Origin: Nitrospirota bacterium | GTDB lineage: Bacteria > Nitrospirota > Nitrospiria > Nitrospirales > Nitrospiraceae | Length of the DNA stretch: 64,000 nucleotides | Assembly (NCBI GenBank): GCA_030684575.1 | Contig: JAUXVD010000008.1 | Location: 558,001-622,000 of the forward strand | Direction of reading: 5' to 3' | Shown: in pieces, positions 5,705-51,879 of the stretch | How positions within the stretch are numbered: the first letter of the stretch is position 1 | Layout of the letters: each line of letters begins with the position of its first letter | Made by a program: the position numbers and the translations under genes | The notes under the pieces: model-generated | Databases searched by the model: none | What the model was told of the DNA's origin: nothing | What the model saw: only the letters and a program-made list of their open reading frames with translations

Positions 5705-7087
<1,383 letters not shown>

Positions 7088-7152: not shown

Positions 7153-7228
7153 GAGCCGGTAGCTCAGTTGGTAGAGCATCGCCCTTTTAAGGCGAGGGTC
7201 CTGGGTTCGAGGCCCAGCCGGCTCACCA
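7153..7228 (+). tRNA. tRNA-Lys (TTT)
   Basis: A complete cloverleaf: acceptor GAGCCGG with CCGGCTC, anticodon stem-loop TCGCC-CTTTTAA-GGCGA with anticodon TTT, T arm CTGGG-TTCGAGG-CCCAG, CCA encoded. Its 3' part (7188-7227) recurs at 18062-18101 with 38 of 40 bases identical, as expected if an integrating element once used this tRNA as its attachment site. Confidence 0.97.
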
Positions 7229-7485
7229 TACATCTTCCATAGATGACGCAGTTCGGACTGTCCGATGGCCAGGATTGGACGGTCATGGGATAGTTATCCT
7301 CCCTTGACCGCGCATCAGCGGCAACCAACATTGCAGCCCTGCAATCGACCTCTCTCGCGTCTGTCCCCGCCACATCCAGTTGCCAGAAAACTGCTTCGGT
7401 TCTCCTTCCAGGGGATGGCCCGGGACTCACCGAACAGACCGTATTACTAACCAACCCTCAGTCGGGCAACCTGGCGTGACCGAGC

Positions 7486-7883
7486 CTATCGCCGTAGGAG
7501 GGCGATCCAGCGCCACAGCTTCAGCAGGCTGGCAAGGGAGGCCGCCACGTAGGTGAGCGCGGCTGTGGTGAGGATGCTGCGCGCTACCGCTCGTATTCGG
7601 GCGACAGGTAATTGCCCTGTCGGAAGACTGGAAGGGCACGTCTGAAACTGGCGTCCCACTCGACCGGCAGCGTGACGAGGCCGACTAGCGTAGAGATCCC
7701 CACCGTCGCCAGTCCGGCCACCATGACGAGGAGGCCTGCCGCAGGGCTCTTGGCCAAGGACGCCGCGATCGGAATCTCCATCATCAGGACCACCCCGACC
7801 TTCTCCGCCCCCTGCGCGACCCGCACGAGCTCCGTCCGTTCCGCGAGCGGCTGGTAGCCCTGGAGATCTTGCATAGCATGGCC
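7486..7883 (-). pseudogene. Decayed YugP-type membrane zinc metallopeptidase
   Basis: Read on the minus strand, the remnant starts with GHAMQDLQGYQPL, the tail of the HEVGHAIQ zinc motif of the YugP (Zn_peptidase_2) family. It continues through hydrophobic segments to TLPVEWDASFRRALPVFRQGNYLSPEYER, then hits a stop near 7589. Shifting frame restores VARSILTTAALTYVAASLASLLKLW and ends at the stop at 7486. The N-terminal half with the HE catalytic pair is missing and a frameshift breaks the C-terminal part. It cannot encode an active peptidase. It sits directly behind tRNA-Lys. The rest of 7229-8196 shows no supportable gene. Confidence 0.75.
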
Positions 7884-8196
7884 GATGACTGTCCTCGCTT
7901 CCCTCTCCGGTTCAGCATCTACCCCAGAGGGGGTTACGTCTGTCTGATTCAGTGTGGGATACTACGCGACCGCTCCGTCGTGCTCCGATCAATGCCCGCA
8001 TCACGTCTGAACCGATTGCCTGTCGACATTCTCAAAAAGTCTTCTGAGTTTAGAATCAATCTTATAGACTGGCGGAAGTGGAACAGGCTCATCGCCGTTG
8101 GGCTGGCCTGGCTGCTTACCCTCGGCTGCTGTTCCTTTCTGCCTGAACCGGGGGCTAGGGATTCCGGGATACGGTCGTTACAGACGGAGTGCACAG

Positions 8197-9873
8197 ATGT
8201 CCTCTGCATTGAAAGCGATTCGCCAGTTGAGCGAAGCCCTATTTCAGTACACCCATGTAGACGACATGGTTCGTCAAACTCTGCATGCCGCGCTTGATGT
8301 CATCGGAGCAGATGCGGGGTCCGTGTTACTCGCGAACCCTGAGACTCGGAAATTGGTGTTTCACTACGTCGTCGGAGAGACTGCCGCGTCGTTGCAAGGG
8401 ACCAGCATTATCTGGGACGAGGGCATTGCCGGCGCGGTGTTTACCTCCGGCAACCCGGAAGTGATCTCTACGGTGCAAAAGGATGCGCGCCATTACTCCG
8501 CGATGGATATGCTGACCGGATTTCAATCCCGTGACATGATCGTCGTGCCCCTGAAGCGGCATGGAGGCAACCCGATCGGCGTTATCGAAATCCTGAACAA
8601 GAACACGGGCCCGATCACCCGTGACGACCTGGATACGCTGGTCGTGCTCGGCGCTATTGCCGCTTCCGCCATTGAACAGTCGAAGACCGTTGAGGCGTTA
8701 CGCGTCAAGGACGTCCAGCTTCAGCAGGCGCAGAAAATGGAAGCGGTCGGTCGCCTGGCGGGAGGCGTGGCGCATGATTTCAATAACCTGCTGACGGTGA
8801 TTCGAGGCTATAGCGAACTGATCGTCATGGGCGCCAATGGCAATTCGCCGACGCGATTGCATGCCGAAGAGGTGCTGAAGGCTGCGGACAGGGCCACGGG
8901 GCTTACGACCCAGTTACTGGCATTCAGCAGGAAACAGGTCCTTGAGCTGCGAGTCGTGCGATTGAATGAGGTCGTCGCGAATGTGGAGAAACTGTTGCGG
9001 CGTTTGATCGGAGAAAATATCCAGTTCATTTCAACCGTCGGACCCAGCCTTGGCTGGGTCAAAGCCGATCCGGGGCAGTTGGAGCAGGTCTTGATCAATC
9101 TCGCGGTGAATGCGAGAGACGCCATGCCTCAGGGCGGGACCTTGACCATCGGGATCGTCCAACGTGACCTCGATGAGACGTTTACCAGCCGGTACCTGGA
9201 TTTTGAGCCGGGAGCCTATTGCGTCCTCTCGGTGACTGACACCGGATGTGGGATGAACAAGGATACCCTTTCGAAACTGTTTGAACCCTTCTTTACCACC
9301 AAGGATCCTGGCAAGGGGACCGGGCTGGGCCTCTCCATCGTCCATGGGATTGTGAAACAAAGCCGTGGTCAGATCCTGGCTTCCAGCGAGCCGGGGGTCG
9401 GTACGACCTTCAACCTTTACCTGCCCTCCGTGGGGGCGCCTGTCGAGGTGGCGGCATCTCCTCACGAGGCTCCTGCCGCTTCGCTCGGAACAGAGACGGT
9501 CCTGGTCGTGGAAGATGAGGGGCAGGTCCGCACGCTTGAGTGCGGACTGCTTGAAGCCAGCGGCTATCACGTGTTGGCAGCCAGCCATGGCGGAGAAGCG
9601 TTGCGTATTTGCCAGGAATATTCAGGTACCATCGACCTTCTAGTGACGGATCTTATCCTGCCTCACATGAACGGACGGGAGTTGGCCAGCCGGGTCGTTC
9701 CGATCCGCCCGTCGATGAAGGTGCTCTATGTGTCCGGCTACCCTGACGAGACGCTCGTCGCAGCCGGGGTCGCGAGGAGCAAAGTGCCCTTTCTCCAGAA
9801 ACCCTTTGCGTCTGATGCCCTGTTGCAGAGCGTGAGGACCGTGCTCGACGGGACAGGCGATACTCCACTCTGA
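8197..9873 (+). CDS. Hybrid sensor histidine kinase (GAF-HisKA-HATPase-REC)
   Basis: A cytosolic 558-residue kinase without membrane segments. The start at 8197 follows a GGAG ribosome site; the reading frame is open 99 bases further up but with no family similarity. A GAF sensor covers about 15-165. The HisKA box has phosphorylated H193 (GGVAHDFNN), then the N box ([11 protein letters not shown], about 301-311), the G boxes ([15 protein letters not shown]), and a C-terminal receiver with phospho-acceptor D485 and K535. The receiver is fused to the kinase, so phosphate may be relayed internally or to a separate phosphotransfer protein not seen here. The HD-GYP gene starts 9 bases after its stop, so the two are very likely one operon. 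Confidence 0.93.
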
Positions 9874-9882
9874 CACGGGACC

Positions 9883-11376
9883 ATGGCAGACCATTCCCTC
9901 AGACAGATTCAGGAAATCAGCGCGCTGCTGAATTCCAGCCTCGATCCGACGACCATCCGCACCCATGCCATCGAAGCGGCCACCCTGCTCATGAACGCCG
10001 AAGCCGGTTCCCTGCTCTTGCTGGATGGCGCGACCGGGGAGTTGTACTTCGAGGTGGCCCATGGCGAAAAGGGCGCAGCCGTTCGCGCCTCACGTCTCAA
10101 GCCTGGACAGGGCATCGCAGGCTATGTCGCACGGACCGGTCAGCCGCTCATCGTCAACGACGTCCAGCGCGATCAGCGGTTTTTTGGACAGGTGGACCAG
10201 GCCAGCGGATTTGTCACACGTAACATGGTCTGCGTACCGGTCACGGCACACGGGCGTCTCCTGGGTGTACTCCAAGCGATCAATCGTAACGCCGGTCAAT
10301 CGTTCGATGAGGACGACCTTCAGAACTTCGTCGCGCTCGGCCATCAAGTCGGCATTGCCATTGAAAATGCCAATCTCTACGAGGACATTCATCTGCTTTT
10401 CGAGGGATTCATTTCCGCGAGCGTGCAGGCCATCGAAAGCCGTGACCCGACCACCAGTGGCCATAGTCAGCGTGTGGCCACCTTGACCTGTCGCCTTGCG
10501 GAGGAGGTCAGCCTGACCCGGTCCGGACTCTATGCGGGGATTCAGTTTACGGCGGATCAAATGAAGGAAATCCGTTATGCCGCGGTGCTTCACGATTTCG
10601 GGAAGGTCGGTATTCGTGAGAACCTGTTGCTCAAAGCCAAAAAACTATATCCGGCCCAGCAGGAACTGATCAAGGCACGATTTGATTTCATCAAGCGGAC
10701 GATGGAGGTTGATACATTACGCCGGAAACTCCGTGTCTATGAATCTACAGCTGGAGAAAAGAAGCAGGCTCTGTTGGCCGGACTGGATGAACAACTGGCG
10801 CGGCGGATGAGCGAAGTCGACGAATTGCTGTCCAGTATCCTCACTTGCAATCAACCGGCGTCTCACTCTCACAGTCAAACAGGGAAGCTGAAGGAGATCG
10901 CCCGTATGGAGTACCGTTCATACGACGGGCCCCGTCCTTTCCTCACGGATGAGGAACTCGGTGCGTTGTCGGTGCTCCATGGAAGCTTGACGCGGCAGGA
11001 ACGGAACGAGATCGAACGGCATGTCACCCACACATTCGAATTCCTGTCGAAAATTCCCTGGAGCAGGGCGCTGCAGCAGGTTCCTGCGATCGCGTGGAGT
11101 CACCATGAAAAGCTGGATGGCAGTGGGTATCCCCGCGGGCTGTCGAGCGATCAGATCCCGTTGCAGGCCCGCATGATGACCATCTGCGATATCTACGACG
11201 CCTTGACGGCCTCGGACCGGCCCTACAAAGCGGCGATTCCGTCCGCCACTGCGCTCGGATATCTTGAAAGTCAGGCGAAGGAGGGGAAGCTGGACTCTGA
11301 ACTCGTCGACTTATTCGCAGGCCATCACGTATACCAGGCCACGCAGTCCCACCAGACGATTCGCAAGGTCGGCTGA
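9883..11376 (+). CDS. GAF/HD-GYP domain c-di-GMP phosphodiesterase
   Basis: A 497-residue cytosolic protein: a GAF sensor (about 10-165) followed by an HD-GYP hydrolase (about 175-475) of the class that degrades cyclic di-GMP. The metal-binding HD pair is H237/D238 (AAVLHDFGKVG), and the GYP motif is HHEKLDGSGYP at 407-417. An insert of over 100 residues (about 250-380, helical and charged) separates the two halves, longer than in typical HD-GYP domains. Its GAF domain resembles that of the kinase encoded just upstream, and the two genes are 9 bases apart. The kinase and phosphodiesterase probably answer related signals. Confidence 0.92.
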   Translation: MADHSLRQIQEISALLNSSLDPTTIRTHAIEAATLLMNAEAGSLLLLDGATGELYFEVAHGEKGAAVRASRLKPGQGIAGYVARTGQPLIVNDVQRDQRFFGQVDQASGFVTRNMVCVPVTAHGRLLGVLQAINRNAGQSFDEDDLQNFVALGHQVGIAIENANLYEDIHLLFEGFISASVQAIESRDPTTSGHSQRVATLTCRLAEEVSLTRSGLYAGIQFTADQMKEIRYAAVLHDFGKVGIRENLLLKAKKLYPAQQELIKARFDFIKRTMEVDTLRRKLRVYESTAGEKKQALLAGLDEQLARRMSEVDELLSSILTCNQPASHSHSQTGKLKEIARMEYRSYDGPRPFLTDEELGALSVLHGSLTRQERNEIERHVTHTFEFLSKIPWSRALQQVPAIAWSHHEKLDGSGYPRGLSSDQIPLQARMMTICDIYDALTASDRPYKAAIPSATALGYLESQAKEGKLDSELVDLFAGHHVYQATQSHQTIRKVG

Positions 11377-11437
11377 GCAGGCTGCGCGGCCTGCGACCTT
11401 GCGAATCGACCATTTCAGCTCTGAAATGCGCAGGGGC

Positions 11438-13615
11438 TCAACTCGCGCGGGATTCCAGTTGCGCCTGTCCGGCGTTCGCCGCTCGATATTTTATGGTATA
11501 GGTTCCCACCGGCTCCTGGCGGCCTTTGACGGTGACGATCTGAAGCTTTCTGACCTGCACCTGACTGCGCCAGTCTCGCAGAGGGTCCGCTGTGTCACGA
11601 CGGATTTCCAGGGCCAGCTTCGATACGGTGAATTCGGTCAGCAATATCGGATGGCCCAACGTTCTGGTGAGTCCTTGGATACGCGCGGTCAGATTCACTT
11701 GATCACCAATCATGGTGTAATCCATTTTTTTGCCTTCGGCGCCAATGTTACCGACCAGGGCGATGCCCGTGTTGATGCCGATTCCGCTGTCGAGGATCGG
11801 TTTTCCCTGGGCCCTCCATCCGGCCTGGAGTGTCGTCAGGCTGGCCCGCATTTCCAACGCGCATTGGACGGCCAATTCGGCATGGTCCGGCTGGTCCAGC
11901 GGCGCCCCCCAAAAGACGACGATCTCATCACCGACGAATTTGTCCAGGGTGCCATTCCACTTGAAAATGACGTCCGTCATCGCGCTGAGATATTCATTGA
12001 GCTGCTCGACCACATCTTCTGCCGAACGGTGCTCGCTGAATGAGGTGAACCCGACCAGGTCGGTGAACAATATCGTCAACTCCTTGCGCTGCCCCCCCAC
12101 CGTCGCCTTCGAAGGGGACTTCATGAGTTCCTGCACGATTCGAGGGCTGACGTAACTGGCAAACATGGAATGAATCTCTCGAGCCTGTCGCTCTTTGAAG
12201 ACATAATTGAGGACGGTGGTCACCATGAAGACCGATCCGATGGCCAGGGTCGGCATCACCAGCGGCAGGCAGATGCCCTTGATGACGAACAGTGCCTGTG
12301 CTGTACCGACGTAGGTCAACCAGGTTATCCCTGCCAAGGATGCTCCATGGATGGCCCGCACCCGCGGCAGGGCATGAGTCAAGGTGAGCCCGAAGCACAG
12401 CACCAGGGCTAGTTCGACGGGGCCGGCCCACAATCCGCTGGACAGGAACCGCTGATGCAGGATGTTCTCGACCACGGTGGCATTTTTTTCGACACCGGGA
12501 ACATTGGCCGAAAACGGGGTGCTGAGTTGATCGTAGGTTCCCAGGGCCGCCGTGCCGACTAAGACGGCTTTTCCCCGGAAGTAGTCGGTGGGGATGCGAT
12601 CGTGGAGCACATCTGTCGCAGACACCCAGGGAAATGAACGTTCGCGACCGGCATAGTTGATCAGCAGGCGCAGCTTCTGATCCGTCGGAACGGCCATCGG
12701 ACCGATCTGGATTCCCTCTCCAAGCACTAAGGCCATTTGTTCTCTCGTGCGTCCGAGATACAACCGCGCGATTTCCAGCGCGAACGAGGGATAATAGGCA
12801 TCGTCATGGCGCAGGACGAGTACTTCTCGGCGGGTCACGCCGTCGTGATCCGGCAATCGATAGACATGTCCGAGCCCTTGTGCCTGCCTGGCAAAGATGT
12901 TGAGTGGAGGCAGGATGCCGGATGCGTCATAGGGGTGGAAATCTGCCGAGGACCCTGATTGCCGGACCAGCATGAACTCGCTTTTCTTCAAACTCTCGGG
13001 GACCCCGTGAGCCTTGTCCTGAGTGGTCTCGGCGACGGGGCCTTCCGGCACAAAGAAAGGCATGGCCAAGACGACGGTGCCTGCCCGGGCGAGGCTTTCC
13101 GCGAGACGCTGATCGCTGTCTAACGCAAGGAGTCCTTGCTCCAATAGGCGACCTGTTTCGCCCTGCAGGGGTTCACCCCTTCCTGCTCCGGCCAGCCTGG
13201 CCCTCAGGTCGCGAATCTCATCGGAGGTTTCCGTCTCGGCGTAGATAATGTCGAGGCCGATCAACGCCGGTTCGCCTGCATGGATTCGATCGAGGAGGCG
13301 GGCCTGTGTGTTGCGGGGCCAGGGCCATCGTCCAATCTCTTTCAGGCTCTTCTCGTCGACCAGGACGAGCACGACTTCCTGGCCGGGAGTTCGTTCGCCT
13401 CGCAGCCTGAATTGTAAATCCAATGCAGTATTGTCGAGCCGCACGATGAGGTTGGGGCCCAGCCAGGTCAGGAATACTAATCCGATCGTGACAGACAGGC
13501 CCAGCCAGAGCCCGAGTCGAAATCCGGTATCCGAGTAGTTGTGTGTCGAGAGGCTCACGACAGTCCATCCAGCGTTCGAGGCCAACGAAGGGGCTTCCCA
13601 CTCACTGAGTACCAT
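11438..13615 (-). CDS. CHASE2-domain class III adenylate/guanylate cyclase
   Basis: A membrane-bound 725-residue cyclase. An N-terminal membrane segment (about 32-52) is followed by an extracytoplasmic CHASE2 sensor (about 55-395), three closely spaced membrane helices (about 396-472) and a class III cyclase domain (about 510-690). The two metal-binding aspartates are visible in ILFTDLVGF (D519) and KFVGDEIVVFWG (D563). It should make cAMP or cGMP in response to an envelope signal. It lies downstream of the FecR-domain gene on the same strand, with a strong hairpin in the 197-bp gap. CHASE2 cyclases are often found with FecR and TPR/outer-membrane genes, as here. Confidence 0.93.
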   Translation of the reverse strand: MVLSEWEAPSLASNAGWTVVSLSTHNYSDTGFRLGLWLGLSVTIGLVFLTWLGPNLIVRLDNTALDLQFRLRGERTPGQEVVLVLVDEKSLKEIGRWPWPRNTQARLLDRIHAGEPALIGLDIIYAETETSDEIRDLRARLAGAGRGEPLQGETGRLLEQGLLALDSDQRLAESLARAGTVVLAMPFFVPEGPVAETTQDKAHGVPESLKKSEFMLVRQSGSSADFHPYDASGILPPLNIFARQAQGLGHVYRLPDHDGVTRREVLVLRHDDAYYPSFALEIARLYLGRTREQMALVLGEGIQIGPMAVPTDQKLRLLINYAGRERSFPWVSATDVLHDRIPTDYFRGKAVLVGTAALGTYDQLSTPFSANVPGVEKNATVVENILHQRFLSSGLWAGPVELALVLCFGLTLTHALPRVRAIHGASLAGITWLTYVGTAQALFVIKGICLPLVMPTLAIGSVFMVTTVLNYVFKERQAREIHSMFASYVSPRIVQELMKSPSKATVGGQRKELTILFTDLVGFTSFSEHRSAEDVVEQLNEYLSAMTDVIFKWNGTLDKFVGDEIVVFWGAPLDQPDHAELAVQCALEMRASLTTLQAGWRAQGKPILDSGIGINTGIALVGNIGAEGKKMDYTMIGDQVNLTARIQGLTRTLGHPILLTEFTVSKLALEIRRDTADPLRDWRSQVQVRKLQIVTVKGRQEPVGTYTIKYRAANAGQAQLESRAS

Positions 13616-13752
13616 TGTGCCTGGATGTATTGGCGGGACAAGACAATTTGCACAGTCCGCAGCAGCTTTTGTCCAGGGGAGGCGTGATGTGGGGGCGGGA
13701 AGTTGCAGAGGAGGGTCTGGGGTATGTAGGGCTCGATCACCGGCCTAAACTG

Positions 13753-13787
13753 CTGCGGCCCTTGCCCGGTTGGGGCAAGGGCCGCAG
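13753..13787. terminator. Strong hairpin between fecR-like gene and cyclase
   Basis: A perfect 15-bp GC-rich stem (13753-13767 with 13773-13787) with a 5-nt loop, 26 bases past the stop of the FecR-domain gene. No T run follows on the minus strand. It may work as an attenuator or an mRNA-stabilising structure rather than a full terminator, letting the cyclase gene be transcribed at a lower level from the same promoter. Confidence 0.6.
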
Positions 13788-13812
13788 GAGCCACAGCGAT
13801 GATCGATGGACC

Positions 13813-15027
13813 CTAATGTCCGAGCAAATTCAGGGCGCCATTAATGACCGCAGGGGGAATCGCAAGGACCGCCGGGATTATAGGTACGACCGGTACGACT
13901 GGCACGACAGCCACGACTGGAGCTATAACCGGCGCTACGACAGCCACGACCGGAGCCACAACCGGAGCCACGACAGCCGTGACCGGCGCGACAGTCACCG
14001 TGGCTGATGCCACAGGAGCGGCAGTCACCGCCGCCGTTGCTCCTGTGCTTCCGCCTACAGTGACGCTCGCGCTGACCTGTCCGGTTCCCTGCCCCGCTGT
14101 CGTGCCCCCAGCGTCCCCGTTCAAAGACTCGTTGGAAAGACTGGCCAGGGTTGTCATGGCCTTGACCAAGTGCCCATCTACGTTAAGTGCTTGAAGGGCT
14201 TGTGCCGGCAATTCAACGAGGGGGCCTTCGCGCAGGGTTGTGAGCTCGACTGCCATCAATGCTCGGGCCAGTCCCCCGGGAACAGAAGCGAGGATCAGTT
14301 CTGCCTTCTCACGTTGGGTCGTGACGGTGCGACCGGCATCATGAGTCAGGAGGGCGCTCGAGGCAGGTCGCTGCGTATGTTTCAGGCTCGATCCGGCCTG
14401 GAGATTGTCCATTTGATTATTGAGGGGGTGGGGCGCTGGAACCGAGGGAGCCTTTCCCTCCAAAGCGACGGAAAAGTAGCCTGGATCGACGGCCACGGTT
14501 ACTCCGCCCGAGGTAAAATCCACACGTCCCGTTTCTCCGATATTAATGATCCCTGACCGCCCGTTCTCTACCCACACGGTGAAATAGGTGCCTCTCGCCG
14601 CGGCGACAGCCGAGGGGGTATGGATTTCGAATCTCGACCCGTTGGCCTTGAACACCTTGCTGACGAGGGCCCGCACCTGGCCTTGCAGGAGTTTCACCAC
14701 GGCCTTCCGGACGTTCTGTTCCGGGTTGTAGATGTATTCATTGATCTCGACCCGGCTACTTTCACCCACCGTGAGCATGCTGTCGTCCTGGAAAAACGCT
14801 TTGGTTCTGGACTCTTCCTTGGTCTGGATCACATCCTTAAACAGCACCTGGTCATGAAGTTTGACCGGAAGGGTTTGCCCGTTATGGGGATGCGTCACAC
14901 CGACCTGCCCTGAGACTGCCATGTAGAACCCGATCCCTTCTGTGCCTAGCTCTGAAGCGAGGGCGGGGGCTGCTCCGAAGATCAGCGTGCCGGCGACGAG
15001 GCTTAACGCGAGTCGATGGGTGGTCAT
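13813..15027 (-). CDS. Secreted FecR-domain protein with Val/Ala/Pro-rich tail
   Basis: A 404-residue exported protein. A signal peptide covers about 1-25 (cut after APALAS). A FecR domain at about 50-180 includes SMLTVGESSRVEINEYIY and TPSAVAAARGTYFTV, the conserved core of the FecR beta-structure. The last ~95 residues are almost entirely V, A, P, T and I in short repeats (VAPVVAPVV-like), probably an extended or membrane-associated tail. It lacks the transmembrane anti-sigma part of true FecR proteins, so it is more likely a periplasmic sensor or structural partner of the adjacent cyclase and TPR/barrel protein than a sigma-factor regulator. Confidence 0.85.
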   Translation of the reverse strand: MTTHRLALSLVAGTLIFGAAPALASELGTEGIGFYMAVSGQVGVTHPHNGQTLPVKLHDQVLFKDVIQTKEESRTKAFFQDDSMLTVGESSRVEINEYIYNPEQNVRKAVVKLLQGQVRALVSKVFKANGSRFEIHTPSAVAAARGTYFTVWVENGRSGIINIGETGRVDFTSGGVTVAVDPGYFSVALEGKAPSVPAPHPLNNQMDNLQAGSSLKHTQRPASSALLTHDAGRTVTTQREKAELILASVPGGLARALMAVELTTLREGPLVELPAQALQALNVDGHLVKAMTTLASLSNESLNGDAGGTTAGQGTGQVSASVTVGGSTGATAAVTAAPVASATVTVAPVTAVVAPVVAPVVAVVAPVIAPVVAVVPVVPVVPIIPAVLAIPPAVINGALNLLGH

Positions 15028-15291
15028 AATATCCTCTCTCTCTGGACCGGAAACTTAGGTCATGCGTGACATTTCTTACCCGGTGGAATGGCAGGAACCA
15101 TACCCAGGCAGGTCTTTTTTGTGCGAGCTGTGACCCCTTGCCAACCTATTGAAATCACTGTGCATCCTGAGCCGTACGCTTTTGGAGCCCCGCGAAGGTA
15201 TTAGTTCGTTCGTAGCGGTTCCCGTCGAGCGAGGGACATAACTTGTCACCCTCTACAACATTTTGCGTCCTGATTGTCCGGCAGCGAAGGG

Positions 15292-16884
15292 CTAGAAACG
15301 GCTGTTCAGGGTGAGGGAGAACACACTGCGGTTGTAGTTAAATGCCGTGAGGTTGGACTGATCGCGCGTGTAGTTGTATTCCGCGGCGACCGAGAGCCAA
15401 TCGGTAATCGGCCGGCCGATCGTCGCAGTGAAGAAGAAAATATTATCGCGGCGGGCAGTGGTTCCGCCGGTGGAGAAGGAACTCGGATTATCGTAATTCT
15501 GACGGTAGTAGTCGAAGGCGAAGCTTGGTCTCAGTGTCCAGAATTCCGGTATGCCCAAACCCACGGATAGCCGGTGCGCATGGTAGGCCCAATCCGCATT
15601 GGTCTGCATGCCCACCGTTGCCGATGCGGGATGTCCGCCTCCGGTGCGATCGTTGTCGAAGGTATAGCCCAACCGGAGATGGCCGGTCCCGTTTGCGAAA
15701 TAGGCATATTGTGTGACACCTGCCAGCCAGTTTTTCCCGTCCCTGAGGGAATTCCCGGCAAAGCGGTCATCTTGGAAATCCTTGTCTTGATACCTGAGCT
15801 GTATCTGGGTAAAAAGGCTATTGCTCTCGGCAATCGTGATAATTGGTTGCAGGGCATGGGCAATCAGAAACGGATCCCCACCGACCCGCACATAGTCGAA
15901 GGCATATTGGAACCTCGCCGTCACGATACCGATCTGTCGTTGCACAAACACCGAGGGCGCGTGGTCTTGGATATCGAACGCGTTCAACGTCCGGTGAAGG
16001 CTCTGATAAAAGCCGTAGGTGACCCCTGCCGTCCAGAGGGACGTTTGAATCGCCCGATATTCGCCGCGGGCATAGTATGTCGTGCGGAAGTCGTCCTTTC
16101 GCGAGATACCGGTCGATCCGCCGGGAGGTTGGATTCCAATGGGAAGCAACACGACATTGGAGTCATATTGGCCACTGATGCTCAGGTTCAGATCCCACTG
16201 TTTGGGGCCTTTCGGCACGGCGGTTCGCTGTTGCAGGATCGCGCGAGCCATGCGAGCCAGCTCGGACTCTGGTTCACCTGAGGCCATGGCGGCGTCAAAC
16301 TCTTTCTGGGCCTGGTCGATTAACCCGCGTTCGTAGTAGGACATGCCTGTGTAGTAGCGGGCCGTGGGTGTGAGGTCGGGGCTGAGCGCCATTGCCCGCG
16401 AGAACAACTCAGGAGCCTGTGCGAAGGATTTCAATTCGTGCGACACCACTCCTTGGTAGAAATAGACCAGGGGATTTTGCGGATCGAGTGTCTGGACTTG
16501 TTCAAGCGACGCCATCGCTTCCTGGTACTTCCCGAGTTGAGTTTGTGTGATCGCCAGCCCCAGCCAGGCCTGCGCGCGAGTCGGCCGTCGTCTTGTCAGA
16601 TTACGAAAGAGGGTTTCGGCTTCAGGATATTGTTTCAGCCGTAGGAGCGCCTGGCCCAGGTATTCGGTTGCCTCCGGATCGTCGGGCACGGCCTGCTGGG
16701 CCCGTTCAAACAGTTTGGCTGCCTTCTCATAATGTTTCCGTCCGAACTCGACGGTGCCTTTCGCCATGCTGAAATCATAAGTCTCGTTCGGCGCCTGGGC
16801 CCAGGCCGCGTAATCGGACGAGACCCAGACCGTGCAGGCCCACAACAGTCTCCACCAAATGTTGTATCCGGATCGTTGCCGCAT
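15292..16884 (-). CDS. TPR / outer-membrane beta-barrel protein
   Basis: A 530-residue protein from the Met at 16884, chosen because it starts a classical signal peptide (arginines, hydrophobic WWRLLWACTVW, cut after AWA); an in-frame Met at 16935 would place 17 residues before it. No clear ribosome site favours either. TPR units cover about 40-215. The remaining ~300 residues alternate polar and aromatic residues in strands and end in a terminal phenylalanine (SVFSLTLNSRF), the signature of an outer-membrane barrel. The layout is like surface-lipoprotein-assembly-modifier (SLAM/DUF560) proteins. It is upstream of the FecR-domain gene on the same strand and is probably a functional partner of it and of the cyclase. 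Confidence 0.8.
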   Translation of the reverse strand: MRQRSGYNIWWRLLWACTVWVSSDYAAWAQAPNETYDFSMAKGTVEFGRKHYEKAAKLFERAQQAVPDDPEATEYLGQALLRLKQYPEAETLFRNLTRRRPTRAQAWLGLAITQTQLGKYQEAMASLEQVQTLDPQNPLVYFYQGVVSHELKSFAQAPELFSRAMALSPDLTPTARYYTGMSYYERGLIDQAQKEFDAAMASGEPESELARMARAILQQRTAVPKGPKQWDLNLSISGQYDSNVVLLPIGIQPPGGSTGISRKDDFRTTYYARGEYRAIQTSLWTAGVTYGFYQSLHRTLNAFDIQDHAPSVFVQRQIGIVTARFQYAFDYVRVGGDPFLIAHALQPIITIAESNSLFTQIQLRYQDKDFQDDRFAGNSLRDGKNWLAGVTQYAYFANGTGHLRLGYTFDNDRTGGGHPASATVGMQTNADWAYHAHRLSVGLGIPEFWTLRPSFAFDYYRQNYDNPSSFSTGGTTARRDNIFFFTATIGRPITDWLSVAAEYNYTRDQSNLTAFNYNRSVFSLTLNSRF

Positions 16885-17124
16885 GCTGTCGGTTTTAGTC
16901 GCAGGATATGGATGAATGATATTGATCAGATGCACGTAATAGGCAGGGTAGCAGAGGAAACGTTTGAGTCAACGAATAGCGGTAATTCTCGCAGGATAGA
17001 AGCGGGGTTTTGCGAGGCAAGTCAGGGACTTTGTGCTACTGTTTGGCGCGAGAGAATTGGCAGCGCAGGCTTGTCTGCCATACGAGGCGAGGCCGCCGAT
17101 GTCTCTTTGCCGAAAGGATTCTCT

Positions 17125-17913
17125 GTGAAAATACGCGTGCTCGGCTGTCATGGCTCCGATCAACTGCTGCACGAAAACGGTCGTACGCTGCAGTGCCAGC
17201 CCTGCGCCTTCTTAATCAATGACACCGTGCTGTTGGACGCTGGCACCATTGGGTCACGGCTGACGCTGCCGGAACAATTGAAGATCAGCCACGTTCTGCT
17301 ATCGCACCTCCACTTCGACCATATCAGGGGGCTCCCGACGCTTGCGGATAATCTCGTCGGGGAACCGGAGGCCTCACTCATTGTGGCCGGTATTCCTGAG
17401 GTGCTGGACGGCCTGGGCACCCACATCTTTAACTCTACGGTCTATCCCGATTTCTTCCGGCTTCCCAGCCCCGATCGGCCGGTGTTCGTTCCCCGCCCGT
17501 TGAAGTCGGGGGAGGAGTGGAAGGTCTGCGGTCTGAGCATTGTTCCCATCAGGGTGAACCATGTCGTTCCAACCGTGGGATTCCTGATTAGCGATGAGCG
17601 CACCACGATTGTCTATAGCGGAGATACCTACCAGACGGAGGATCTGTGGCATGCCGCGTCGTCCAAGTCGAACTTGAGCGCGGCATTTATCGAAGTCTCC
17701 TATCCGAATAATCAGGCCGCCCTCGCACAGATGGCCAAACACCTCACGCCCGAACTGATGGGAGGGGAGTTCAGGAAAATCGGCCGTCCCGACGTCCCCG
17801 TGTATGCCTACCACATGAAACCGCGATTCAGGAGTACGATCGAAGCGGAGCTGCGCGAGACCCGTATTCCAAATATTACGGTTCTTAACGAAGATCTGGA
17901 AATCAGCCTCTAG
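17125..17913 (+). CDS. Metallo-beta-lactamase-fold hydrolase, class II cyclic-nucleotide phosphodiesterase-like
   Basis: A 262-residue cytosolic hydrolase. The GTG at 17125 is chosen because AAGGA lies six bases upstream and the fold begins at KIRVLGCHGS. The zinc motif HLHFDH (H61, H63, D65, H66) is intact, followed by VNHVVPTVGFLI, YSGDTYQTEDLW and a late histidine in YAYHMKP. The layout, with an early GCHGS loop and no RNase Z exosite, resembles class II cAMP/cGMP phosphodiesterases and RNase Z-like enzymes. A nucleotide cyclase is encoded in the same island, so cyclic-nucleotide breakdown is an attractive but unproven role. Confidence 0.78.
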   Translation: MKIRVLGCHGSDQLLHENGRTLQCQPCAFLINDTVLLDAGTIGSRLTLPEQLKISHVLLSHLHFDHIRGLPTLADNLVGEPEASLIVAGIPEVLDGLGTHIFNSTVYPDFFRLPSPDRPVFVPRPLKSGEEWKVCGLSIVPIRVNHVVPTVGFLISDERTTIVYSGDTYQTEDLWHAASSKSNLSAAFIEVSYPNNQAALAQMAKHLTPELMGGEFRKIGRPDVPVYAYHMKPRFRSTIEAELRETRIPNITVLNEDLEISL

Positions 17914-18061
17914 TGAGACCGGGGAATTCGTGAAGAGACCCACTGCTTAAAGTAATCAGCCTGCCCAATTTATTTCATTCGTTCAGGTAAATGTCCTCGT
18001 AGTCTCAGCGCGAACGTCGCTCACGATTTTACTCCATCAGTATTTTCACTGGTCTCCATTC

Positions 18062-18101
18062 TAAGGCGAGGGTCCTGGGTTCGAGACTCAGCCGGCTCAC
18101 C
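18062..18101 (+). repeat. 3' fragment of tRNA-Lys, putative attachment-site copy
   Basis: Forty bases identical at 38 positions to 7188-7227, running from inside the tRNA-Lys anticodon loop through the T arm and acceptor to the first two bases of CCA. It is in the same orientation and about 10.9 kb downstream. There is no 5' half, so it is not a working tRNA. The rest of 17914-18347 contains no gene I can support. Confidence 0.85.
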
Positions 18102-18347
18102 CCACAACCCCATAACCCACGTCATCTCTCTTGTTCATTTCATTGCCAAGTCTGTAAGGGCGCACACCTGTCAGGCAGGGGCCCCTGTAGGAGCATGATC
18201 CCAACTGGAAAGCCCCTGTTCATCACAAAGGGCTCAATCGGTCTATCGCTTCTGCTTGACTGCGACAGGAGTCCGGTACTAGCTTGCCGTAAGCCTTGCC
18301 GCCGCAGGCCGACTCTAGTTGTGTGCCGTTTCTACCGAAGGAGTCCT

Positions 18348-21029
18348 ATGGCCTCTCATTCTCGGACCGCCTCCGCTTCTTCACCACCGATCCTCGCAGA
18401 ACAGCAGCGCCTCGAAGAGGATGCGAAGCGCCAGCGTCATTGGAAACGGTGGGGCCCCTATGTCAGCGAGCGGGCCTGGGGGACCGTGCGCGAGGACTAC
18501 AGCCAGAACGGGACCGCCTGGGAGGCGTTTCCCCATGACCATGCCAGGTCCCGCGCCTATCGCTGGAACGAGGACGGCCTCGCCGGCATCTGCGATCGCC
18601 ACCAGATGATCTGTTTTGCGATTGCCTTATGGAACGGGCGAGACCCGATTCTGAAGGAACGAGTCTTCGGTCTTACCGGCAACGAGGGCAATCACGGCGA
18701 GGACGTGAAGGAGTGCTACTTCTATCTGGACTCCACGCCGACCCATTCCTACATGAAATATCTCTATAAGTATCCGCAGGCGGCATTTCCCTATAGCCGG
18801 CTGGTCGAAGAGAATCGTTGTCGGGGGCGTCAGGATCCGGAGTTCGAACTCATCGACAGCGGTGTCTTCGACGACAACCGGTACTTCGACGTCTTTGTGG
18901 AATATGCCAAGGCGTCGCCGGAAGACTTGTGTATCCGTATCCAAGTTGTGAATCGTGGCCCCGAGCCGGCCGAACTCACGTTGCTGCCGACGATCTGGTT
19001 TCGCAACACCTGGTCCTGGGGATCGGACATTCGGCGTCCCCGGCTCAAGCAAGGAGAGCCGACGGACCAGATGAGCGTCATCGAGACGCAGCACGAATAT
19101 TATGGCTTGCGCCGGTTACTCTGCGAAGGCGAACCCACTTTGCTCTTCACGGAAAATGACACCAACAGCCGCCGGCTCTACGGCGATCAAGAAGGTCCCC
19201 GGTACGTGAAGGACAGTTTTCACGATTATGTCGTGCAGGGTGAGAAGGACGCGGTCAATCCTGACCACCTGGGCACTAAAGCCGCGGCCCAATATGTACT
19301 CAGGCTTGCCCCCGGCGAGACCAGGACCATTCGTTTGCGATTGACCAACGAAGCACAGAGCCCGGGTGTCGCAACTCCGGACTTCGATGCCGTATTTACG
19401 ACACGTACCCAGGAGGCGAACGAGTTCTATGACCGTCTTGCCCCGAGCCATCTGTCGGAAGACGCGCGCCTGGTGCAGCGGCAAGCCTTTGCCGGTCTGC
19501 TCTGGAGCAAACAATTTTATCACTACGATGTGAACCGATGGCTCAAGGGCGATCAGGTGGGGCAGGCACCCTCGCGTGAACGGCTGCGCGGTCGCAACTC
19601 GGACTGGACGCACCTCTATAACGCCGATGTCGTCTCGATGCCTGACAAATGGGAGTACCCCTGGTACGCGGCGTGGGATCTCGCATTTCACTGTATCCCG
19701 CTCGCGCTGGTCGACCCGACGTTCGCCAAGGAACAGCTCGTCCTCATGCTGCGCGAATGGTACATGCATCCGAACGGACAGATTCCGGCCTATGAATGGG
19801 CGCTCGGCGACGTGAATCCGCCGGTCCATGCCTGGGCGGCCTGGCGCGTTTATAAGATCGATAAGAAACGCACCGGCGTCGGGGATCGTCGCTTCTTGGA
19901 GCGCGTCTTTCACAAACTGCTGCTGAACTTTACTTGGTGGGTGAACCGGAAAGATGCCGACGGGAAGAACATCTTCCAAGGCGGCTTTCTCGGCCTCGAC
20001 AACATCGGGGTGTTCGATCGGAGCGCGCCGCTGCCGACCGGTGGCCACATTGAACAGTCGGACGCCACTAGTTGGATGGGCATGTATTGCCTCAATATGC
20101 TGACGATGGCACTGGAGCTGGCGCGAGACAACCAGTCCTACGAAGACGTGGCCAGCAAGTTCTTCGAACATTTCGTCTACATCTGCCGCGCCATGAACAA
20201 TATCGGCGGCGAGAAGATCGAACTGTGGGATCGTGAGGACGGCTTCTTCTACGACGTGCTGCACCTGCCGAACGGGGAAACCACACATATGAAGGTCCGT
20301 TCAATGGTCGGCCTGATCCCTCTGTTCGCGGTCGAGACGCTGGATTCCGAGCTCATCGATAGCCTTCCCCGGTTCAAACATCGCATGCAGTGGTTTATCG
20401 AAAACCGGCCGGACTTTGCGCAGCATCTCGAAACGCAGTCCTACGACGGAGGCGTGCGGCGGTTTCTGTCGCTCGTGAGTCGCGATCGGCTGAAATCCGT
20501 CTTGGGGTATCTGCTGGACGAAGAGGAGTTCCTTTCCCCTTATGGCATTCGCGCTCTCTCGCGTTATCACAAAGATCATCCCTACGTGGTCTCGGTCATG
20601 GGCCATGAACATCGCGTGGACTATGAGCCGGCGGAATCAGGGACAGGCTTGTTCGGGGGCAATTCGAATTGGCGAGGCCCGATCTGGTTCCCGGTTAACT
20701 ATCTCCTGATCGAGTCGCTGCAAAAGTTTCACTACTATCTCGGCGACCAGTACCAGGTGGAGTATCCGACAGGATCTGGCCGCTATACCACGCTTTGGCA
20801 AGTGGCGGCTGAGATCTCACGCCGTTTGACTCATATCTTCCTCCGGAACGCCGAAGGGAAACGTCCCGCGTTCGGCGGTGCAACGCGATTTCAGGACGAT
20901 CCGCATTGGCGCAACAATGTGTTGTTCTACGAGTACTTCCATGGAGACAACGGGGCAGGCATCGGTGCAAGCCATCAGACGGGATGGACGGGATTGGTGG
21001 CAAAGCTGATTCAGCAATCCGGGGAGTGA
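18348..21029 (+). CDS. MGH1-like / GH63-type glucosidase
   Basis: A large cytosolic 893-residue glycoside hydrolase. The ATG at 18348 follows GAAGGAG at ideal spacing; upstream in-frame codons carry no similarity. The N-terminal part ([35 protein letters not shown]) and the central [13 protein letters not shown] with later [11 protein letters not shown] and [11 protein letters not shown] blocks are typical of the GH63/MGH1-like (alpha/alpha)6 family that removes alpha-linked glucose. There is no signal peptide, so it works on intracellular sugars such as glycogen fragments or glucosylated solutes. A debranching-enzyme gene follows about 100 bases later on the same strand, which suggests a shared role in alpha-glucan use. 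Confidence 0.88.
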
Positions 21030-47209: not shown

Positions 47210-48328
47210 ATGAATGTGCCATTGCTTGATTTGAAAGCTCAGTTCCAGCCTCTCCGTGCTGAGATCATGGCGGAGCTAGAAACGGTCTGTGACGAGCAGG
47301 GATTTATCCTGGGGCCGCGCGTCGTGGCGTTCGAGGAATCCGTTGCCAAGTATATCGGGTCTCGTTACGCGATCGGCTGCGCCTCCGGGAGCGATGCGCT
47401 GTTGCTCTCCCTGATGGCTATGGGTGTGAAAGCCGGCGATGAGGTCATCACCGTCCCGTTCACATTTTTTGCCACGGCGGGCGCGATTTCACGATTGGGC
47501 GCGAAGCCGGTGTTTGTGGACATTCAGCCGGATACGTTCAACATCGACCCCAAGCTGATCGAGCAAGCGATCACACCTCGCACAAAAGCCATCATGCCCG
47601 TGCACCTCTTTGGGCAATGTGCGGACATGGCTGCGATCAACGAGATGGCCAAGCGGAAGAAGATCTACGTCATCGAAGATGCCTGCCAGGCCATCGGCGC
47701 CGGTCAGCAGGGGAAGCGTGCCGGGGTTCTCGGCGATACCGGTTGTTTCAGCTTCTTCCCTACAAAAAACTTAGGCGGGTTCGGCGATGGCGGTCTCATT
47801 ACGACCAACGACAAGACGCTTGCCGATTCCATGTCGATGCTCCGTGTGCATGGGAGTCAGGTCCGTTACCTCCATGAGGCGATCGGCATCAATAGCCGGC
47901 TGGACGCACTCCAGGCAGCCGTGCTCCAGATCAAATTGAAGTATCTCGACCAATGGACCGAGGGGCGCCGCCGGAACGCCGAACGGTATCAGCAGTTGTT
48001 CGCCAGAACGAAACATACGGATCGAGTGACGCTGCCACCTACGGCGCCAGGAAATTTCCATGTCTATAACCAGTTTACGGTGCGAGTCCAGAAGCGCGAC
48101 GAGTTGCGCACCTTCTTGAAAGAGAAGGGGGTCGGCACGGAAGTGTACTACCCGCTTCCAATGCACCTCCAACAGTGTTATCGCGATTTAGGTCATCAGA
48201 AGGGATCGTTCCCTCTCTCAGAGCAGGCGGCTGAAGAGGTGATGTCGCTTCCAATCTATGCCGAACTGACGGAAGCGCAGCAGGTTTACGTGGTTGAGAT
48301 GATTGCAGAGTTCTATCGGCGCGCCTAG
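47210..48328 (+). CDS. DegT/DnrJ/EryC1 sugar aminotransferase
   Basis: A 372-residue PLP enzyme that transfers an amino group to a nucleotide-linked keto-sugar for surface polysaccharide. The PLP lysine is in SFFPTKNLGGFGDGG; other conserved blocks are SGSDALLLSLMAMGV, VPFTFFATAGAI, EDACQAIGA and INSRLDALQAAVL. It resembles WbpE/WlbC-type aminotransferases (UDP-3-keto-GlcNAcA), but the sugar cannot be fixed from sequence. No other polysaccharide gene is next to it. Palindromic element B starts at the base after its stop. Confidence 0.9.
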   Translation: MNVPLLDLKAQFQPLRAEIMAELETVCDEQGFILGPRVVAFEESVAKYIGSRYAIGCASGSDALLLSLMAMGVKAGDEVITVPFTFFATAGAISRLGAKPVFVDIQPDTFNIDPKLIEQAITPRTKAIMPVHLFGQCADMAAINEMAKRKKIYVIEDACQAIGAGQQGKRAGVLGDTGCFSFFPTKNLGGFGDGGLITTNDKTLADSMSMLRVHGSQVRYLHEAIGINSRLDALQAAVLQIKLKYLDQWTEGRRRNAERYQQLFARTKHTDRVTLPPTAPGNFHVYNQFTVRVQKRDELRTFLKEKGVGTEVYYPLPMHLQQCYRDLGHQKGSFPLSEQAAEEVMSLPIYAELTEAQQVYVVEMIAEFYRRA

Positions 48329-48454
48329 CAGGATGCTGAAACAGTCCACCAGCGGCGTTCTCGGCTCGCAAGAATCCTCAACGTACCCCTGAGGGTACGC
48401 CTCCGGTTCTTGCTCCGCCTGCGGCCTTGCTGGATGGACTTTTTGAGCATCCTG
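48329..48454 (+). repeat. Palindromic intergenic element, copy B
   Basis: The 126-bp element abuts the aminotransferase stop. Its ends, caggatgctgaaacagtcc and ggactttttgagcatcctg, are inverted (17 of 19 match). The inner hairpin is CGTACCC-CTGA-GGGTACG. In copy A the same stem is CGTAGCC/GGCTACG, so a G:C pair has become C:G on both arms: a compensatory change that supports a real stem. The block CTGCGGCCTTGCTGGATG is shared with copies A and C. Confidence 0.82.
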
Positions 48455-51732: not shown

Positions 51733-51853
51733 CGGCTGTTGAAACAGTCCGCCGGCTTCGTTCTCGCATCGCTCAGAGGCTCAACGTACCGAAGCGTACG
51801 CCTCGCCCCTTCGTTCGCTGCGGCCTTGCCGGACGGCCTTTTTGAACAGCCTG
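51733..51853 (+). repeat. Palindromic intergenic element, copy C
   Basis: The ends cggctgttgaaacagtcc and ggcctttttgaacagcctg are inverted. The inner hairpin is shortened to CGTAC/GTACG with a 6-nt loop, and the block CTGCGGCCTTGCCGGACG is shared with copies A and B. It lies 26 bases 3' of the Spy-like gene (minus strand) and ahead of the PepSY gene. Confidence 0.78.
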
Positions 51854-51879
51854 CACATGCGTGCCCTTCCTGCTCTGAA

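Follow-up and report, generated by a model that had tools for sequence, protein, structure and literature searches.

Introduction

Genomic islands in tRNA genes are catalogued by Islander, which looks for an intact tDNA with a cognate 3′ fragment downstream in the same orientation, an interval of 2-200 kb, and a fragment outside conserved coding domains and full tRNA genes, and which requires an integrase ORF within the interval (PMC4383910). Targeting of tRNA genes is known for tyrosine integrases only (PMC4383910). Direct repeats in a tRNA are also accepted as canonical att sites for inovirus prophages (PMC6813254), which are further recognized by a Zot/pI-like ATPase and a replication initiator. 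A narrow literature search yielded no description of a purA/tRNA-Lys hotspot in Nitrospira, and the literature on Nitrospira islands, inoviruses and the CHASE2/FecR module offered no direct precedent.

Here we analyzed a segment of a 64,000-nucleotide stretch of DNA (the window) from a Nitrospira-type genome. Positions 7229-18061 most probably represent the decayed remnant of an integrative element inserted in the anticodon-loop region of tRNA-Lys(TTT) (probability about 0.86). The segment resembles Islander-type islands of the anticodon-centred attachment subclass, in which crossover occurs in the anticodon-loop region: an intact tDNA is followed in the same orientation by its cognate 3′ fragment, the interval measures about 10.8-10.9 kb, and the fragment at 18062-18101 lies outside conserved coding domains and full tRNA genes. 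The integrase ORF is missing, so the island is a relic of an Islander-type island rather than an intact one. The window likewise lacks the Zot/pI-like ATPase and replication initiator of inovirus prophages. We therefore read the segment as a relic of a tRNA-targeted integrative island carrying a signalling module at an active hotspot. The mechanism is already known and indeed textbook; the advance lies in mapping the hotspot, together with an empty/occupied pair, and in an integrase that can be tested.

A displaced 3′ copy of tRNA-Lys bounds the segment

The features of the region are listed by window position and strand.

5762..7087, +, purA, left chromosomal neighbour
7153..7228, +, tRNA-Lys(TTT), intact (ARAGORN); left boundary of the island (attL side)
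7229..7477, no strand, left interior without integrase; unlike the conserved left end of relatives
7480..7885, −, 3′ remnant of a decayed gene for a YugP-type zinc metallopeptidase; its intact paralogue lies at G000:C8:781301-781705
8098..9873, +, hybrid histidine kinase with GAF and receiver domains; start codon uncertain
9883..11376, +, GAF and HD-GYP protein, probable c-di-GMP phosphodiesterase
11438..13615, −, CHASE2 and class III nucleotide cyclase
13813..15027, −, FecR-domain protein
15292..16935, −, TPR protein, probable outer-membrane barrel (barrel predicted from sequence)
17113..17913, +, metallo-beta-lactamase-fold protein, weakly similar to class II cyclic-nucleotide phosphodiesterases
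17976..18038, +, just within the right boundary; remnant of the end of a dispersed repeat, 73% to G031:C86
18062..18101, +, displaced tRNA-Lys 3′-half copy, 38/40, with homology from 18053 (sequence comparison); right boundary (attR side)
18102..18194, +, original tRNA-Lys 3′ flank, common to G017 past its own tRNA copy
18195..21029, +, MGH1-like/GH63-like glucosidase, chromosomal neighbour outside the island

The original prediction of a 40-base direct repeat of the tRNA-Lys 3′ end with 38 identical positions was confirmed by ungapped comparison, in which the match at 18062-18101 ran in direct orientation from the anticodon loop to CC, the final A of CCA being absent. BLASTN extended the similarity to tRNA nucleotides 27-75 against 18053-18101 (44/49, E = 4.5e-14 within the window). 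Searching all 23 contigs of the genome (3.79 Mb) for the pattern with ≤3 mismatches yielded two places only, tRNA-Lys and this copy, which are thus a unique pair in the genome; the reversed control gave 0 matches. The other two tRNAs of the window have no 3′ copy. The displaced copy sits after the stop at 17913 and before the ORF that starts at 18195, ARAGORN called no tRNA there, and an Rfam search of the island returned tRNA-Lys itself and nothing else.

The purA/tRNA-Lys interval varies among relatives

We compared the locus across species-level genomes of relatives, many of them draft assemblies. A recurrent arrangement in the genus places a variable spacer between purA/tRNA-Lys and the MGH1-like glucosidase, and the best named relatives of the window glucosidase are from Nitrospira MAGs. 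The spacer differs in gene content and in length, from about 2 to 39 kb: 1.7-2.6 kb in G024, G007 and G026, 8.9 kb in G027, 10.9 kb in the window, 13.4 kb in G031, 14.7 kb in G019 and about 38.7-38.8 kb in G017. It differed in every genome compared, and the gene set found at 8-18 kb of the window was absent from it, as expected of the insertion that the original prediction had proposed to look for. Conservation of the gene order across relatives, named there as evidence against an insertion, was looked for and not found.

In G017, the closest relative tested, the interval ends, directly before the orthologous glucosidase, in a copy of the tRNA-Lys 3′ half that matches at 47/47 positions, and the flank past this copy aligns with the window's flank past 18101. 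G020, which has no glucosidase, carries tRNA-Lys without an insert; its tRNA-Lys and flank match the tRNA 3′ copy and flank of G001 (86.8% over 205 bp). G001 has an integrase after tRNA-Lys, with the 3′ copy and G020-like flank on another contig. G020 (empty) and G001 (occupied) thus form an empty/occupied pair, with the two ends of G001 presumably linked across contigs, and tRNA-Lys is therefore a true attachment site. Beside the glucosidase no clean empty site was found; G007, G026 and G024 still hold about 2 kb there. About ten tRNA-Lys 3′ copies occur in the single genome G031 (L034, L217-L223), some in tandem with duplicated flank, which suggests repeated integration.

Integrases lie at the same tRNA-Lys in relatives

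In G017, G001 and G008, a tyrosine integrase of 379-392 aa (about 91% identical) lies beside tRNA-Lys, beginning some 80-120 nt past the tRNA and oriented towards it. In G031, G027 and G013, integrase C-terminal remnants alone occupy the same place. The view that the repeat is the trace of a tRNA attachment site thus gained support from three relatives with an integrase at the same tRNA-Lys, from the perfect copy in G017 and from the G020/G001 pair.

The genes next to tRNA-Lys in G017 encode the integrase, a Zot-family ATPase and a Rep_trans initiator (L031:10963-17907, G017:C15), followed further on by UmuC/SRAP and then by a PLD-SNF2 helicase, type IIG restriction-methylation and AAA cluster. 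As judged from sequence, the integrase, Zot-like ATPase and Rep_trans initiator form a putative inovirus-like module, and the G017 element in this respect resembles inovirus prophages at tRNA genes. Zot is also present in G005, G008, G014, G019, G023 and G026, and partially in G012. The purA/tRNA-Lys site is thus a repeated docking site in Nitrospira, used by integrase elements, among them one that carries inovirus-like genes and one that carries restriction genes.

The window island shares the target gene and core with the elements of G017, G001 and G008, and its chromosomal neighbours with G017. Unlike these integrase-bearing elements (class A), it has no integrase of ~380 aa 3′ of tRNA-Lys and neither of their conserved ends, and unlike the G017 element it has no Zot gene, replication-initiator gene or restriction cluster. 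No similarity to the class A integrase appeared in the window even at E < 10; nothing in the window resembled the class A left end (G017/G008/G001/G031/G027/G013); and the class A right-end sequence (...AAACGGGGAAACC...), which stands before tRNA copies in many genomes, was absent from the window. An exact scan of viral contigs for this right end gave no match. Tblastn with the relatives' enzymes detected neither tyrosine nor serine recombinases in the island, bearing out the reported absence of an integrase; the Zot search was negative across the whole window genome, and no replication initiator occurs among the island genes. Relatives of the tRNA-Lys integrase lie elsewhere in the window genome, beside tRNA-Lys(CTT), tRNA-Met, tRNA-Val and tRNA-Arg (L293, L287, L294 and L187; G000:C8, C18, C20 and C15).

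Under the preferred reading, the incoming DNA would have brought its own tRNA-Lys 3′ half, leaving tRNA-Lys whole at the left end, while the host's original 3′ half would have been pushed right, before the glucosidase gene, where it is now drifting. Later loss of the integrase and left end would have made the island unable to excise by itself, with HD-GYP, CHASE2-cyclase, FecR, TPR/outer-membrane, histidine kinase and phosphodiesterase-like hydrolase genes retained. We infer this order of events, as well as a signalling role for the cargo and its arrival by site-specific recombination rather than by later homologous exchange.

The right end resembles the end of a dispersed repeat

Just inside the right boundary, positions 17976-18038 align at 73% with the G031:C86 sequence immediately before the tRNA-Lys copy of G031. 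The alignment scored 44, none of 2000 shuffles exceeded 27, and this was the best place in the window. The matched G031:C86 sequence is the end of a ~350-bp non-coding repeat that is dispersed in G031, G013 and G006 and also present, sparsely, in the window's own genome. Its copies (L222:666-960, L280:647-1015, L282, L288 in G000:C4, L287 in G000:C18, and others) have a mean pairwise identity of 81%, and an Rfam search with it returned nothing. We had considered the right-end repeat as a defined element end, a notion weakened when it proved dispersed in relatives beyond element ends; since it is not confined to such ends, it cannot alone name the element.

The most unusual by-product of the analysis is that the right edge of this repeat is a perfect tRNA-Lys anticodon-arm hairpin (TCGCC-CTTTTAA-GGCGA). 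Its last 20 bases, the anticodon arm, are 97% conserved, compared with 88% elsewhere in the repeat, and its flanks vary except in copies that abut the tRNA-Lys 3′ half. A speculative and rather unlikely extension is that the repeat with its anticodon arm acts as a portable attachment site, a mimic in which tRNA-Lys-aimed elements land or which they carry, including a serine-recombinase element in a viral contig and G031, and through which the window island entered tRNA-Lys.

In an IMG/VR contig (L296:3110-5062) and in G031:C86 (L222:379-665), a tRNA-Lys 3′-half copy joined to the ~350-bp repeat has a large serine recombinase ending about 110 nt away. Since the known tRNA-targeting integrases are all of the tyrosine type (PMC4383910), this arrangement merits a separate look, and the nearness of the putative recombinase to the junction does not prove that it uses the site.

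The cargo occurs as a block at a second locus

The description of the enclosed genes as mainly signalling and envelope genes holds, and the peptidase gene described as decayed is a truncated Zn_peptidase_2 (YugP-type) gene, with an intact paralogue elsewhere in the genome at 83% DNA identity. By eye, the cyclase, HD-GYP and metallo-beta-lactamase proteins seem to retain their catalytic motifs. The metallo-beta-lactamase-fold gene is on the same contig as a related cyclase in several Nitrospirales, an arrangement that would fit cyclic-nucleotide turnover.

The HD-GYP, CHASE2-cyclase, FecR and TPR genes form a colinear block in G023:C31 and G026:C22 (58-75% protein identity), where the blocks share one chromosomal locus without a tRNA; G023 has the histidine kinase too. 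In G018, G005, G009, G017, G001, G031 and the window genome (G000:C11:21219/21358), which lack the block there, 50-140 bp separate the two flanks of this locus. The block is therefore a presence/absence unit, and in the window genome it occurs at tRNA-Lys only. Among the other relatives compared, no cargo genes were found at the tRNA-Lys site except for distant histidine-kinase similarity in G013 (51%) and G033 (37%). The island illustrates how blocks of second-messenger signalling genes can be acquired by a nitrifier.

It is possible, though we doubt it, that the scar is genuine and the signalling genes arrived later, by homologous recombination or another insertion into the occupied hotspot, replacing the original element; as regards the scar this is a sub-case of the preferred reading. 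The first cargo could have given way to the present one through a deletion or homologous exchange, and phage and conjugation genes and the left element end are indeed all missing. The truncated yugP copy, foreign to the cargo, adjoins the left edge; the module moves or is lost as a unit at the other, tRNA-less locus; and tRNA copies have built up in tandem at the same site in G031. Against late arrival, the cargo fills the interval, with the right-end repeat directly between it and the tRNA copy.

That the genes at 8-18 kb are ancestral at the tRNA-Lys site and were lost by relatives is very improbable. Their base composition is ordinary, and their relatives in G023 and G026 show strong constraint: dN/dS between window and G026 was about 0.11-0.16 for the cyclase and FecR genes, synonymous sites being saturated for the other two block genes. 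However, none of the relatives compared in which the glucosidase follows tRNA-Lys has the gene set there, not even the closest, G017; a tRNA copy marks the boundary; and the related module sits at another locus in G023 and G026.

Partial tRNA copies can result from duplication, yet it is scarcely credible that part of this tRNA was duplicated by chance or by recombination without any link to integration, as integrase-bearing relatives have the same type of fragment at the locus with the same start and orientation, the G020/G001 pair contradicts it at this tRNA-Lys, and the sequence just inside the window copy is conserved.

Age and composition of the island

The island has a GC content of 58.1%, and the rest of the window, taken in stretches, one of 57.1 ± 0.8%, so that the GC comparison with the flanks proposed in the original prediction gave no signal either way. 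With integrase, left element end and composition difference all missing, the island is probably an immobile relic.

Between the window genome and G017, 26% of fourfold-degenerate sites differ in purA and 39% in the glucosidase. If neutral, the 40-base copy should have accumulated 5-8 changes since the split; 2 were observed. Because the tRNA copy changed less than neighbouring silent sites predict, this comparison of few bases suggests that the insertion is younger than the split from G017. Of the characterization of the island as old and fixed, the decayed, integrase-less part therefore stands, whereas its great age is doubtful (2/40 changes against a fourfold divergence of 26-39%).

Further repeats

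Two genomes carry further copies of the 3′ end of the YugP-type gene close to the intact one (L181:4463-4568, 7302-7706; L182:4088-4552, 9980-10135, 11071-11154); truncated in the island, this 3′ end is possibly another insertion point. Another repeat, of ~120-200 bp, occurs at 51759-51854 and 48325-48454 (−) of the window, at L180:10535-10735 and in dozens of places across the Nitrospira genomes searched.
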